This document shows positions 18,968 through 22,260 of a DNA stretch of 33,051 nucleotides, in pieces. Origin of the DNA: Bacteroidota bacterium (GTDB lineage Bacteria; Bacteroidota; Bacteroidia; Chitinophagales; Chitinophagaceae); NCBI GenBank assembly GCA_018267585.1, contig JAFDYE010000904.1, forward strand, positions 1-33,051, written 5' to 3'. Numbering within the stretch: position 1 is the stretch's first letter; every line of letters begins with the position of its first letter. Position numbers and translations under genes: made by a program. The notes beneath the pieces are model-generated. The model searched no databases. It worked only from the letters and a program-made list of their open reading frames with translations, and had not been told where the DNA came from.

Positions 18968-18994
18968 TGTCACAAATCCAAAGGCTATCTTGTC
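18968..18994 (+). promoter_or_regulatory. Candidate ECF41-type promoter, TGTCACA-N16-TGTC
   Basis: TGTCACA (18968-18974) followed by 16 bp and TGTC (18991-18994) matches the -35/-10 pattern I recall for ECF41 sigma factors (TGTCACA and CGTC) with one mismatch in the -10. It lies 42 bp before the ATG of an ECF41-type sigma gene, as expected for self-activation of the operon. Confidence 0.7.
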
Positions 18995-19036
18995 TACTTT
19001 GACGGGACCGGGTCCTTTTTCGCCGGAATAAATGAT

Positions 19037-19936
19037 ATGGAGAACAAAGCCGACATTTTTTTAGAGTATAAACCTCTCTTATTCTCAATCGCCTACAACA
19101 TGCTGGGCCACGTCGACGAGGCAGAAGAGATGGTACAGGACAGCTTCCTCAAATGGATGGAAGTAGAAATAGCCAGCGTCCGGCAACAAAAAGCGTTTCT
19201 CGTAAAAATGGTCACCAACGCCTGCATCAACCACCTCAACAGCGCCCGCGCCCGCCGGGAAAAATACGTCGGCATCTGGCTCCCCGAACCCCTCCAGAAC
19301 TATACCCCCGACACCGGCCACGCCCGCATCGAGACCTACCACGCCCTCTCCATCGGCATGCTCGTCCTCATGGAAAAACTCACGCCACAGGAAAGAGCCA
19401 TCTTCCTCCTGAAAGAGATATTTGCCTACGACTATTACGAACTGGCAGAGATCTTCAACAAAAGCACAGACGGCTGCCGCCAGATCCTCAAAAGGGCAAA
19501 AGAGAACCTCGGCAAAGACAGACGGAGATTCGAGATCGACCTGAAAGTGCACGAAAAGATACTCAACAACTTCCTCAGGGCGATCGACGAAGGCAATATG
19601 GACGGCCTTATCGACCTCCTCAAACAGGATATCCGGATGGTCACCGAAGGCGGCGGCGCTGGCCTCACCCTGAAAAACCAGCGCCTCAGGGCCTTGCCCA
19701 AACCCATCGTGGGAAGAGACAACGTCTCGAGGCTTATCCTCGCCATTCTACCCAAGATCCGCGAATCCGTGCCCAACTTCAGCGAAGACATCACCTTCGC
19801 CAATGGTATGCCCTGCATCATCACCTACTCGGGCAACCAGCCCCTTAGCCTCGTCGCACTGGAGACCGACGGCGAACAGATCCGTAATATCTACGTACAG
19901 ACCAACCCGGAAAAGCTCAAACACTTTAGGAAATAG
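19037..19936 (+). CDS. ECF41-type RNA polymerase sigma factor (SigJ-like) with C-terminal SnoaL-like domain
   Basis: This 299-residue protein is longer than a plain ECF sigma factor. Region 2 spans about 8-75 (LLFSIAYNMLGHVDEAEEMVQDSFLKW). The linker has the ECF41 motif WLPEPL (81-86). Region 4 spans about 108-165 (LTPQERAIFLLKEIFAYDYYELAEIFNKS). The rest is a SnoaL-like regulatory domain with TEGGGAG (about 203-209) and a closing NPEKL (290-294), both matching conserved ECF41 tail motifs. In this group the fused tail replaces an anti-sigma factor and modulates activity, and targets are usually the gene's own promoter and adjacent redox-type genes. That agrees with the TGTCACA promoter just upstream and the oxidoreductase-like gene in the same operon. 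No FecR-like anti-sigma gene is present. Confidence 0.93.
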   Translation: MENKADIFLEYKPLLFSIAYNMLGHVDEAEEMVQDSFLKWMEVEIASVRQQKAFLVKMVTNACINHLNSARARREKYVGIWLPEPLQNYTPDTGHARIETYHALSIGMLVLMEKLTPQERAIFLLKEIFAYDYYELAEIFNKSTDGCRQILKRAKENLGKDRRRFEIDLKVHEKILNNFLRAIDEGNMDGLIDLLKQDIRMVTEGGGAGLTLKNQRLRALPKPIVGRDNVSRLILAILPKIRESVPNFSEDITFANGMPCIITYSGNQPLSLVALETDGEQIRNIYVQTNPEKLKHFRK

Positions 19937-19981: not shown

Positions 19982-20455
19982 ATGAATTCCCAGACACTTC
20001 TTAACCTCGCCCTCATCATCCACATCACCGGATTCACCATGTTGGCTGGCACCATCATCGCCGATTACGTCATCAGCCGGCGACTCAGCAAATTCATCAT
20101 ATCGGACAAACAAAGGGCCATCGCCGTCCTCGACACAACCGCAGGACTCGGGAGGCTCATCGGCATCGGCGGCGGTCTCCTCCTCATTACCGGCATCGCC
20201 ATGGTCATGATTTTTAAGGGTACGGTGGCACAGATGCTGTGGTTCAAAATAAAGATGGTGCTCGTCATCCTGGTCATCCTCAACGGCGTCGGAGTGCTCC
20301 AACGGGGTACCGGTCAGTTGCGCAAAATGCTCGAACCCGACAGCACGGTCAACAACGGGCAGATCACCGCGCTGAAAGGCAGGCTCAACACCTTCCACTT
20401 CCTGGAGATCCTCCTGTTCCTGATCATCTTTATTTTGAGCGTCATCCGTTTCTAA
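19982..20455 (+). CDS. Four-helix integral membrane protein, DUF2269-like
   Basis: This 157-residue protein has four predicted membrane segments (around residues 7-28, 55-78, 85-105 and 135-155) and few loops. An early IIHITGFTMLAGTIIADYVISRR recalls DUF2269/CopD-like small membrane proteins with a histidine in helix one, but I would not name the family firmly. It starts 45 bp after the sigma-factor stop and ends 11 bp before the NAD(P)-binding gene, so it is probably part of the ECF41 operon and a likely target of the sigma factor. Function unknown. Confidence 0.72.
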   Translation: MNSQTLLNLALIIHITGFTMLAGTIIADYVISRRLSKFIISDKQRAIAVLDTTAGLGRLIGIGGGLLLITGIAMVMIFKGTVAQMLWFKIKMVLVILVILNGVGVLQRGTGQLRKMLEPDSTVNNGQITALKGRLNTFHFLEILLFLIIFILSVIRF

Positions 20456-20466
20456 ATCCCTTGCTC

Positions 20467-21114
20467 ATGAACATACTCATCATCGGGGCCGCCGGAGGCA
20501 TCGGCCACGAAGCCGTACAACTGGCGCTAAAAGAGGGCCACCGCGTCACCGCCGTCTTACGCCATCCGGGCAAACTACAGATCGACCATCCCAACCTGTC
20601 CATCGTACAGGGCGACATCTTCCAGCCCTCAACCTTCGAAAAACAGCTCGGCGACTCCGAACTCATCATATCCGCCATAGGCGTCAGCGGCGCCAGCTTT
20701 TTCAACGACAAGCCGACCACCCTGTACTCCAAAGGCAACGCCAGCCTCGTCTCGGCCATGCAACGCATCGGCGCCAAAAGAGCCTTCTTCATTTCCGCCT
20801 CTGCCGTCGAGATAAGCCCCGTGCTCCCTGCCTTCGTCCGCTTCGTCGAAAAATATTTCGTCCAGCGCGTGCTGCGCCACATGTACGCCGACCTGCGGGC
20901 AATGGAAGCTACCATAAAGGCCAGCAGCCTCAACTGGACCATCATCCGTCCTCCCCAGCTGACCAAAGGCCCCGTCACCGGTCACTACCGGACATCCGTC
21001 AACGCCTTCCTGAAGAACGCCCTCAGGATATCCCGCGCCGACGTCGCCCACTACATGATCCACAACGCCCGCAACGAATCCACCTACAAAGGCATCGTCG
21101 AAATTGGCTACTGA
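20467..21114 (+). CDS. NAD(P)H-binding protein, SDR-like (NmrA/YwnB type)
   Basis: This 215-residue protein starts MNILIIGAAGGIGHEAVQLAL, a Rossmann-fold dinucleotide-binding loop (GAAGGIG, residues 7-13). It then has HRVTAVLRHPGKL, a strand with VQGDIFQ, and SELIISAIG. FFISASAVEI and TIIRPPQLTKGP are typical of atypical SDR proteins of the NAD(P)H-binding (NmrA/YwnB-like) type. A Tyr-x-x-x-Lys catalytic pair of classical SDRs is not evident, so it may sense redox cofactors or isomerise a substrate instead of being a normal dehydrogenase. It is the third gene of the ECF41 operon; ECF41 factors commonly sit beside redox proteins. A strong hairpin terminator follows 20 bp after the stop. Confidence 0.87.
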   Translation: MNILIIGAAGGIGHEAVQLALKEGHRVTAVLRHPGKLQIDHPNLSIVQGDIFQPSTFEKQLGDSELIISAIGVSGASFFNDKPTTLYSKGNASLVSAMQRIGAKRAFFISASAVEISPVLPAFVRFVEKYFVQRVLRHMYADLRAMEATIKASSLNWTIIRPPQLTKGPVTGHYRTSVNAFLKNALRISRADVAHYMIHNARNESTYKGIVEIGY

Positions 21115-21134: not shown

Positions 21135-21158
21135 ATAAGCGCCCGTCAGGGCGCTTAT
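21135..21158. terminator. Bidirectional hairpin terminator
   Basis: ATAAGCGCCC and GGGCGCTTAT form a perfect 10-bp stem around a GTCA loop, between the convergent NAD(P)-binding gene and pstS. The A/T edges of the stem plus following ACTTTAC on one side and TTTTG on the other support use in both directions. Confidence 0.85.
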
Positions 21159-21186: not shown

Positions 21187-22260
21187 CTAAAGAACCGGCT
21201 TGCCGTCAAAAGTCACTGACTTCAGCAGCGCATCACCAACCTTTACCGCAGCCGGAGACAGCGGAGCATAGTTCAACCCGGTGCTGAACTTCTGACCGTC
21301 GTGGATCATCCACTGCAACAGCTTCATCATGTTCATAGCACGCGCCTTGCTGCGGCTGTTGTAACTCTGCTCTTTGTAGAGCACAACCCAGGAAAAGCCG
21401 GAGATAGGATAACCATCAACCGCATCCGTGTTGGTCAGAGAGACCTTGGAATCGGCAGGGATAGCGATGTTCGCAGCAGCACTGACACTGGCCGTGCTGG
21501 GCACGATGAACTTCCCCGCCTTGTTCTGCATCGTTGCATAAGGCATTGAGTTCTGCACCGCATAAGCCAGCTCGATATATCCGATAGTGCCGGGAGTCTG
21601 CTTGATCAGACCGGCAACACCTTCGTTACCCTTTCCACCGATACCCGCAGGCCAGTTAACGGCAGAACCCTTTCCAACCTTGCTGTTCCAGTCACCGCTG
21701 ACTTTCGAAAGATAGGTAGTAAAGATATTCGTCGTACCGCTGCCGTCGCTGCGATGCGCGATCAGGATAGAAGTCGAAGGCAGGCTGACACCCTTGTTGA
21801 TAGCGGCGATCTTTCCGTCATTCCACCTGGTGATATTTCCGAGGAAGATATCGGCCAGTACGGACGGGGTCAGCATCAGCGGCTTGGTTACCTCAGGCAG
21901 GTTATAGCTCAGCACCACCGCACCTGCCGTCACCGGGATATGTACAGCAGGGCCGGTCAACCCAGAGTCCTGCTTGCCGGACATCGGAGCATCTGTCGCA
22001 CCAAAATCCACGGTCTTGTTGGTCAACTGCGAGATACCCGCCCCCGATCCAACGGACTGATAGTTGATCTCAACACCCGTCTTGGAATTATAGTCGGCAA
22101 ACATCTTGGTGAATAAAGGATAGTCGAAAGTACTACCCGCGCCGATCAGTTGCTTGTCATCCTGGAAATTAGCGGTCCCGGGCGCCAGCATGCTCATGCT
22201 GAATGCAGCCACGATGACACCCGCAGCTACGGTCCTGGTTCTGGACAAATGGAGCTTCAT
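21187..22260 (-). CDS. pstS: Phosphate ABC transporter substrate-binding protein
   Basis: This 357-residue protein has a signal peptide (residues about 1-30, VAAGVIVAAFSMSMLAPGTA) and the PstS fold. GAGSTFDYPLFTKMF, SVGSGAGISQL, DFGATDAPMSG and AHRSDGSGTTNIFTTYL provide the phosphate-binding loops. PSTASVSAAA and ISGFSWVVLYKE follow, and length is typical. It delivers periplasmic phosphate to PstCAB, but none of pstC, pstA, pstB or phoU occurs in this window. Its upstream neighbour is an unrelated small membrane gene behind a minisatellite, and a strong terminator follows, so it looks monocistronic. No clear Pho box was recognised upstream. There is no lipobox, so it should be a soluble periplasmic protein. 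Confidence 0.93.
   Translation of the reverse strand: MKLHLSRTRTVAAGVIVAAFSMSMLAPGTANFQDDKQLIGAGSTFDYPLFTKMFADYNSKTGVEINYQSVGSGAGISQLTNKTVDFGATDAPMSGKQDSGLTGPAVHIPVTAGAVVLSYNLPEVTKPLMLTPSVLADIFLGNITRWNDGKIAAINKGVSLPSTSILIAHRSDGSGTTNIFTTYLSKVSGDWNSKVGKGSAVNWPAGIGGKGNEGVAGLIKQTPGTIGYIELAYAVQNSMPYATMQNKAGKFIVPSTASVSAAANIAIPADSKVSLTNTDAVDGYPISGFSWVVLYKEQSYNSRSKARAMNMMKLLQWMIHDGQKFSTGLNYAPLSPAAVKVGDALLKSVTFDGKPVL

Follow-up and report, generated by a model that had tools for sequence, protein, structure and literature searches.

Positions 18968-18994 on the forward strand of the window, by which is meant the whole stretch of 33,051 nucleotides of Chitinophagaceae DNA analysed here, carry what we take, with a probability of roughly 0.88, to be the promoter of the sigma gene behind it, recognised by the very sigma factor which that gene encodes, with feedback on the operon and with dispersed copies of the promoter in related species. 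What can be read directly in the DNA is the motif, how well it is conserved, its link with the presence of the sigma gene, and the extra bases that its copies share. From these we infer that the sigma factor, with its ECF41-like architecture (sigma2, WLPEP linker, sigma4 and a putatively SnoaL-like tail), reads the site, and that the tail probably keeps it in check until a small ligand binds. Once active, it would transcribe its own operon from TGTCACA-N16-TGTC and so raise the levels of an NAD(P)-dependent enzyme and a small membrane protein along with its own. In relatives, this sigma factor would also drive copies of the promoter in front of genes for a TonB-dependent receptor, for DoxX-like and DUF2214-like membrane proteins and for an NAD(P)-binding protein; the majority of these target families are unlinked to the sigma gene in at least one genome. 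Among the points in favour of this explanation, its promoter logic has been tested elsewhere (PMC3426412; PMC6180224) and the protein is related to SigJ over its whole length.

The probable promoter site and its conservation

The site reads TGTCACA-N16-TGTC and lies 42 bp upstream of the ATG at 19037, exactly where the initial annotation had placed it. It consists of a -35 element (18968..18974, + strand), which stands unchanged upstream of 18 of the 19 orthologs, and a -10 element (18991..18994, + strand) that is the clade form of CGTC and is found in 18/18 sigma promoters with the motif. The spacer carries CT at 18985..18986 (+ strand; spacer positions 11 and 12, 4 bp 5' of the -10), with C in 11/18 and T in 15/18 of the sigma promoters and in 11/14 and 12/14, respectively, of the CGTC-type sites listed. 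Downstream of the -10, an extension at 18995..18999 (+ strand) tends towards TNATG in the clade and reads TACTT here, the base at +5 being T and not G. No Rfam family was matched in the window. The gene that follows is of a stress type, and its host is a soil bacterium.

A chance match beside a sigma gene might be considered for the loose form of the motif (N14-18, YGTC), which is expected 0.13 times per window and was present in 11 of 100 window shuffles. The exact N16-TGTC form, however, appeared in none of the 100 shuffles and is kept in 18 of 19 orthologs, and this reading, already refuted, retains practically no probability. Across the window's own genome (7.0 Mb on 929 contigs), TGTCACA-N15-17-YGTC occurs at two sites, 18968-18994 and an N15 site on contig C702, and the reversed pattern occurs 13 times. 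The site at 18968-18994 is the sole copy of TGTCACA-N16-TGTC in this genome, and no N16-CGTC site was found there.

Orthologs of the sigma gene were compared at 19 loci in Chitinophagaceae (53-100% identity, window included), the duplicate loci L011, L012, L013, L015 and L016 being counted once. The initial annotation had named absence of the motif upstream of orthologs as the observation that would speak against it; the comparison shows the exact motif, always with a spacer of 16, directly 5' of the sigma gene in 18 of the 19, including one locus (L024) in which a contig end cuts inside the gene. The spacers between -35 and -10 have diverged among the orthologs, and the gap from the -10 to the ATG ranges from 9 to 146 bp. 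The 19th ortholog, L014, comes from a Niastella MAG and differs by one base, at a site that precedes the gene upstream: TGTCACA-N16-GGTC followed by TTATG, 64 bp 5' of the likely ATG of a TonB-receptor gene that is 63% identical to that of genome G018, runs in the same direction as the sigma gene and has its stop 9 bp before it. In L018, L037 and L040 (9 bp), L023 (10 bp) and L019 and L021 (12 bp), the -10 ends so near the sigma ATG that, with the usual start distance, the mRNAs would be almost leaderless.

Directly behind the sigma gene lie DoxX-like genes (L034, L038 and L039; second in line in L037) or genes for a SnoaL-like (L035 and L036) and an NmrA-like protein (L036); in L041 there is no same-strand gene close behind it. 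For the window, the best reading would be self-activation of the sigma factor together with the membrane protein and the NAD(P)-binding protein.

The conserved block could instead be an operator for a classical regulator. TGTCACA contains TCACA, which is half of a Crp-type site, and a gene that appears Crp/Fnr-like by eye lies near one N16 site (L099). However, a second element at a fixed N16 and the TGTC with its TNATG extension make a poor fit to an operator, as does a block that is not palindromic, and the -35 elements mapped by 5' RACE at the ECF41 promoters of B. licheniformis and R. sphaeroides are identical to 18968..18974 (PMC3426412). An operator is hence very unlikely, and the block is best regarded as a promoter.

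The sigma factor and its predicted operon

The gene at 19037..19936 (+ strand) encodes an ECF41/SigJ-like sigma factor of 299 aa with a fused C-terminal extension, as judged from Pfam, TIGR02957 and the SigJ profile. Pfam places sigma region 2 at residues 8-71 and region 4 at 110-158, and the protein thus has the combination of sigma2, sigma4 and a tail of ~100 aa that is expected of ECF41. NCBIfam ranks SigX4 and SigJ first, with scores slightly under the curated cut-offs (TIGR02957, 309.7 bits against 323.25; NF007214, 263.5 bits against 271), and both models match 18/18 clade members, that is, the 19 clade loci less the truncated L024. A profile of the clade aligns end to end with SigJ of Mycobacterium tuberculosis (5xe7), covering positions 8-294 at E 2.7e-36 (5e-25 with only the window protein as query), and the tail profile by itself finds the SigJ tail (E 7e-5), NTF2-type entries being matched without significance. 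Since Pfam SnoaL_2 hardly reaches the tail (2/18 members, best E 0.013) and the structure predicted from 8 sequences is poor (pLDDT 53.7), the SigJ match is the basis for assigning the tail a fold. SigJ is a remote relative, and the comparison with it, tail included, covered the protein sequence.

GGG and NP(D/E)KL are letters of the ECF41 extension motif. These, as well as the WLPEPL linker, had been pointed out in the initial annotation as marks of the group, and all of them (WLPEPL, GGG and NPEKL) are present in the protein. Among the 19 clade loci, the WLPEP linker is found in 18 (L020 has WLPEA), GGG is lacking in four (L033, L034, L038 and L023), and NP(D/E)KL is absent in L014 and in L024, where the contig end cuts it off. 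No known anti-sigma family was matched among the operon proteins (Pfam, NCBIfam).

The locus shares with the ECF41 systems of B. licheniformis and R. sphaeroides the TGTCACA -35, the spacing of 16 +/- 1, the WLPEP linker, the fused C-terminal extension, a linked carboxymuconolactone decarboxylase/oxidoreductase/epimerase gene (here NAD_binding_10/Epimerase, third in the operon) and the lack of a noticed adjacent anti-sigma gene (PMC3426412). In contrast to these systems, the promoter here precedes the sigma gene itself, and the -10, CGTC or TGTT there, is TGTC in the window and throughout the clade. CGTC, although a feature by which ECF41 is recognised, is a consensus and no absolute requirement, since TGTT takes its place in B. 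licheniformis (PMC3426412). Inhibition through contact with the linker is described for ECF41 tails (PMC8999054), and some members have been tied to oxidative stress (PMC8103513). The label ECF41-type is based on the features above; other SnoaL-bearing groups are ECF56, ECF205, ECF294 and ECF295. In a tree of 80 proteins, the 18 orthologs form a single clade (100/100). Three ordinary ECF factors from the same genome fall outside it, and its neighbours are ECF41-type proteins of Cyanobacteriota, Actinomycetota and Pseudomonadota; this tree does not resolve its backbone or the place of the clade among ECF41-type clades, and it has long outgroup branches and unsettled bootstrap values.

Two genes follow on the same strand at gaps of 45 and 11 bp, which fit the three-gene operon that had been proposed. 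The first (19982..20455, + strand) encodes a small membrane protein of 157 aa that is weakly DUF2214-like (Pfam E 2e-5, below the cut-off), and the second (20467..21114, + strand) encodes an NAD(P)-binding protein (NAD_binding_10, Pfam E 2.1e-36), the epimerase/oxidoreductase-type gene of the locus. The terminator assigned to the end of this operon was only partly right. The stretch at 21135..21158, between convergent genes, forms a good hairpin on the + strand (z -4.3), yet as a terminator it was picked up by the scan on the - strand only, where the T tail lies. It may chiefly serve the convergent gene on its other side, a solute-binding protein (PBP_like_2) at 21187-22260 on the - strand.

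A clade-specific form of the -10

Measured against CGTC, the site had been called near-perfect; the match is real but was undersold, for TGTC is, on the sequences compared, no slip from CGTC but the clade's own -10, fixed among its members. The scan outside the clade took in 10 named plasmid loci and 68 ECF41-like loci (some repeating one gene), and exact TGTCACA-N15-17-YGTY sites were found in 6/10 and 15/68, respectively, the remaining 53 of the 68 having no site within the stretch scanned. An N16 site occurs at 16 loci. At 13 of these, CGTC is the only -10 form (L287, where there are two sites, L290-L293, L135-L139, L142, L143 and L145), while L150 has one TGTC and two CGTC, L149 has TGTC and L129 has TGTT. 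The N15 sites outside the clade end in CGTC (L295) or TGTC (L042, L043, L147 and L148). In eight of the remote loci (L135-L139, L142, L143 and L145), the exact N16 site lies 636-695 bp before the sigma gene and would precede another gene upstream. The TGTCACA-N16-CGTC site of L292 probably belongs to the RpoE9 locus of Sinorhizobium meliloti, an ECF41 system that resembles the present one in its group-type motif, there found at the one start that has been mapped, and for which one target is reported (PMC6180224).

The 18 sigma-bearing genomes contain only 8 N16-CGTC sites, none of them (0/8) in promoter position, which is taken to mean between genes and within 250 bp of the start of a gene on the same strand, according to a simple gene caller. 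On the protein side, N occupies residue 65 (region 2.4) in 17/17 clade proteins, as against D in 13/14 CGTC-type proteins, a difference that, like those in 31 other columns listed, is confounded with ancestry.

Further bases around the -10 are shared as well. T directly precedes TGTC in 18/18 sigma promoters as against 4/13 targets, and T stands at +4 after TGTC in 18/18 sigma promoters. The dinucleotide TG at +4,+5, a check independent of how the sites were selected, occurs at 11/17 sigma sites (the L034 site, met by the script at the cut end of L187, was set aside) and at 10/15 target-type sites, versus 3/15 other N16 sites (L101 and L104 included; p 0.025 against the target-type), 2/16 sites in sigma-less genomes (p 0.003), 1/10 N15 promoter-type sites, 0/14 other N15 sites and 1/16 N17 sites. 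Some sigma promoters have a TAnnTTG look, and the Bacteroidota housekeeping -7 box is TAnnTTTG; a link between the two was considered but stays speculative, most target promoters being without it. The published reclassification of ECF factors may show clade-specific promoter motifs.

Promoter copies and the predicted regulon in relatives

Further copies were sought in 20 genomes, namely 17 with the sigma gene besides the window's own and 3 with intermediate paralogs only. The sigma-bearing genomes together with the window hold 48 N16-TGTC sites, 18 before the sigma gene and 30 others, and 15 of these 30 are in promoter position (14 as called, plus L114, where the DoxX-like gene behind the site was added by hand). 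That the other half lies outside promoter position counts against the preferred explanation, as do the T at +5 in the window, the lack of a further N16 target in its own genome, the N15 sites in promoter position and the 53 of 68 remote ECF41-like loci that have no site in the stretch scanned. Among N17 sites, 0/16 are in promoter position (two more N17 sites in G028 fall outside this count). In sigma-less genomes of the genus, promoter position was found for 1/17 classified N16 sites (17 of 21 have loci, and two of them are nearly identical in sequence) and for 1/7 N15 sites (21 of 25 sigma-less genomes).

TonB receptors that are mutually 62-89% identical lie behind N16 sites in G001, G018, G028, G229 and G365 (Pfam was run on two of the five). 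A search of 394 family genomes, with two candidates scored per genome, found 12 with a receptor relative at E 1e-150 or better, and the motif precedes the ortholog in 5/5 sigma genomes versus 0/7 elsewhere (Fisher 0.0013). Identity to the query receptor is 62% or more in the five and 48-56% in the other seven, so that sigma presence and closeness of the receptor are not separable, only sigma genomes having the closer receptors. Proteins of the DoxX_2 type are encoded behind N16 sites in G089, G114, G181, G229 and G028 (two of the five by Pfam, the rest by similarity), and DoxX-like genes carry the motif in 5/8 cases in sigma genomes versus 0/22 elsewhere (Fisher 0.0004; 30 loci out of 36 places found), although here, as for the receptors, counts and Fisher values overstate independence because related species share ancestry. 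The three DoxX-like genes without the motif in sigma genomes are one directly behind the sigma gene (G365) and two distant paralogs.

Moreover, homologs of the window's own operon genes are found with promoter copies of their own: DUF2214-like genes in G229 and G114 (37-38% to the second operon gene) and an NAD(P)-binding gene in G229 (38% to the third). Members of the same families can thus lie inside the sigma operon or, away from it, behind a copy of the promoter. The window's own genome has neither a receptor nor a DoxX relative at the thresholds used and no second N16 target, and the predicted regulon of this species would therefore be the operon itself, as seen in a fragmented assembly.

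Some individual sites merit mention. L099 and L186, counted among the promoter-type N16 sites, are without both extra features and are probably chance sites. In L101 (G004), a 39-residue remnant of a TonB-receptor C-terminus (2337-2453, - strand; 61.5%) lies behind the promoter site, as though the promoter had outlasted its target gene, and L104 adjoins a gene that is DUF2214-like by eye and points away; both may be real promoters. Carboxymuconolactone decarboxylase is the gene type classical for ECF41 loci, and in L203 (G323) such a gene follows closely on a more distant sigma paralog and is preceded by a TGTCACA-N16-TGTC of its own at 901-927. Sites of the N16 type ending GTGATAAATGTC were seen in L199, L204 and L201 of G297 and G384, genomes without this sigma factor, two of them before an aldo/keto-reductase-like gene and one before another gene (families by eye).

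Sites with a spacer of 15 appear to form a separate class. In the sigma genomes, 10/24 of them are in promoter position (near 901-931 in L208, L211, L213, L221, L225, L229, L235, L236, L238 and L242). Treating N15-17 as a single class was abandoned, the N15 sites lacking the extra bases; this lack also suggests that they are probably read by another sigma factor, although cross-talk may occur. Two N15 sites, in G004 and G018, precede similar 170-aa genes that are DinB-like by eye. Among the 25 paralogs and remote relatives first examined (26-42% identity, L017 included), N15 sites were found in L042 and L043 and a near match directly upstream in L045, the rest reaching at most 9/11 positions. 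L042, L043 and L045 make up a related ECF41-like clade, in which TGTCACA-N15-TGTC lies 8-9 bp before the ATG in 2/3 loci.

Could 18968-18994 be read mainly by one of the dozens of other ECF factors, with the operon as a mere target and no loop? The genome has 55 matches to the SigX4 profile, nearly all spanning the sigma regions only, and the N15 variants in promoter position without the extra bases make a second reader of TGTCACA likely. A candidate of this kind is encoded on contig C822, a second ECF41-like sigma factor of the same genome (31% identity, WLPEP present). However, the motif is absent from the 250 bp 5' of this paralog, and genomes without the present sigma factor, some of which have ECF41-like paralogs, lack the motif at all seven TonB receptors and all 22 DoxX-like genes. 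A different main reader is therefore improbable, and recognition by the sigma factor encoded behind the site is preferred.

Part of this picture has precedents. ECF41 factors in Bacteroidota and their general promoter, with one target operon, are already published: PMC3426412 lists ECF41 in ten phyla, with 2 Bacteroidetes proteins among them, and derives the motif from 285 sites of ECF41 loci, to which the two Bacteroidetes loci may or may not have contributed. The suggestion that the ECF41 code extends to Bacteroidota is supported, with the motif kept in the clade, but is not new in kind. The same paper concludes that, as a rule, an ECF41 factor has one gene or operon under its control, and its main text has no occurrence of DoxX or TonB; a TonB receptor and DoxX-like proteins are among the target families here, in contrast to those of B. 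licheniformis and R. sphaeroides (PMC3426412). Factors with wider effects are possible elsewhere, given that RpoE10, an ECF41-type factor of Azospirillum, regulates lateral flagella (PMC12826043). A literature search combining ECF41, Bacteroidetes and regulon gave a sole match, concerning synthetic switches, and one for ECF41, DoxX and TonB-dependent brought up no title on such a regulon among the matches listed (PMC9023288, as listed).

Overall, the earlier reading is supported, with a promoter code modified rather than copied, and the most interesting part lies beyond the coordinates first noted, namely the ECF41-type regulon predicted for Chitinophagaceae, with its several copies of the promoter. 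It is likely that the ECF41-type sigma factor of this family has recoded its -10 from CGTC to TGTC with a downstream ATG-like block and N for D at residue 65, and that it governs a small, scattered regulon to which an outer-membrane TonB receptor belongs and whose member genes enter and leave the sigma operon, gaining their own promoter copy when unlinked. For ECF41, a widespread group whose signal is unknown and for which one target gene or operon each has been described in three species (PMC3426412; PMC6180224), the recurrent promoter copies before TonB receptor, DoxX-like and NAD(P)-binding proteins would offer several independent read-outs. They may also, speculatively, point to the nature of the signal, which might be a compound passing through the envelope and processed by redox enzymes. 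Finally, the clean shift from C to T in the -10, together with a candidate residue, should make promoter recognition by ECF41 factors directly testable.
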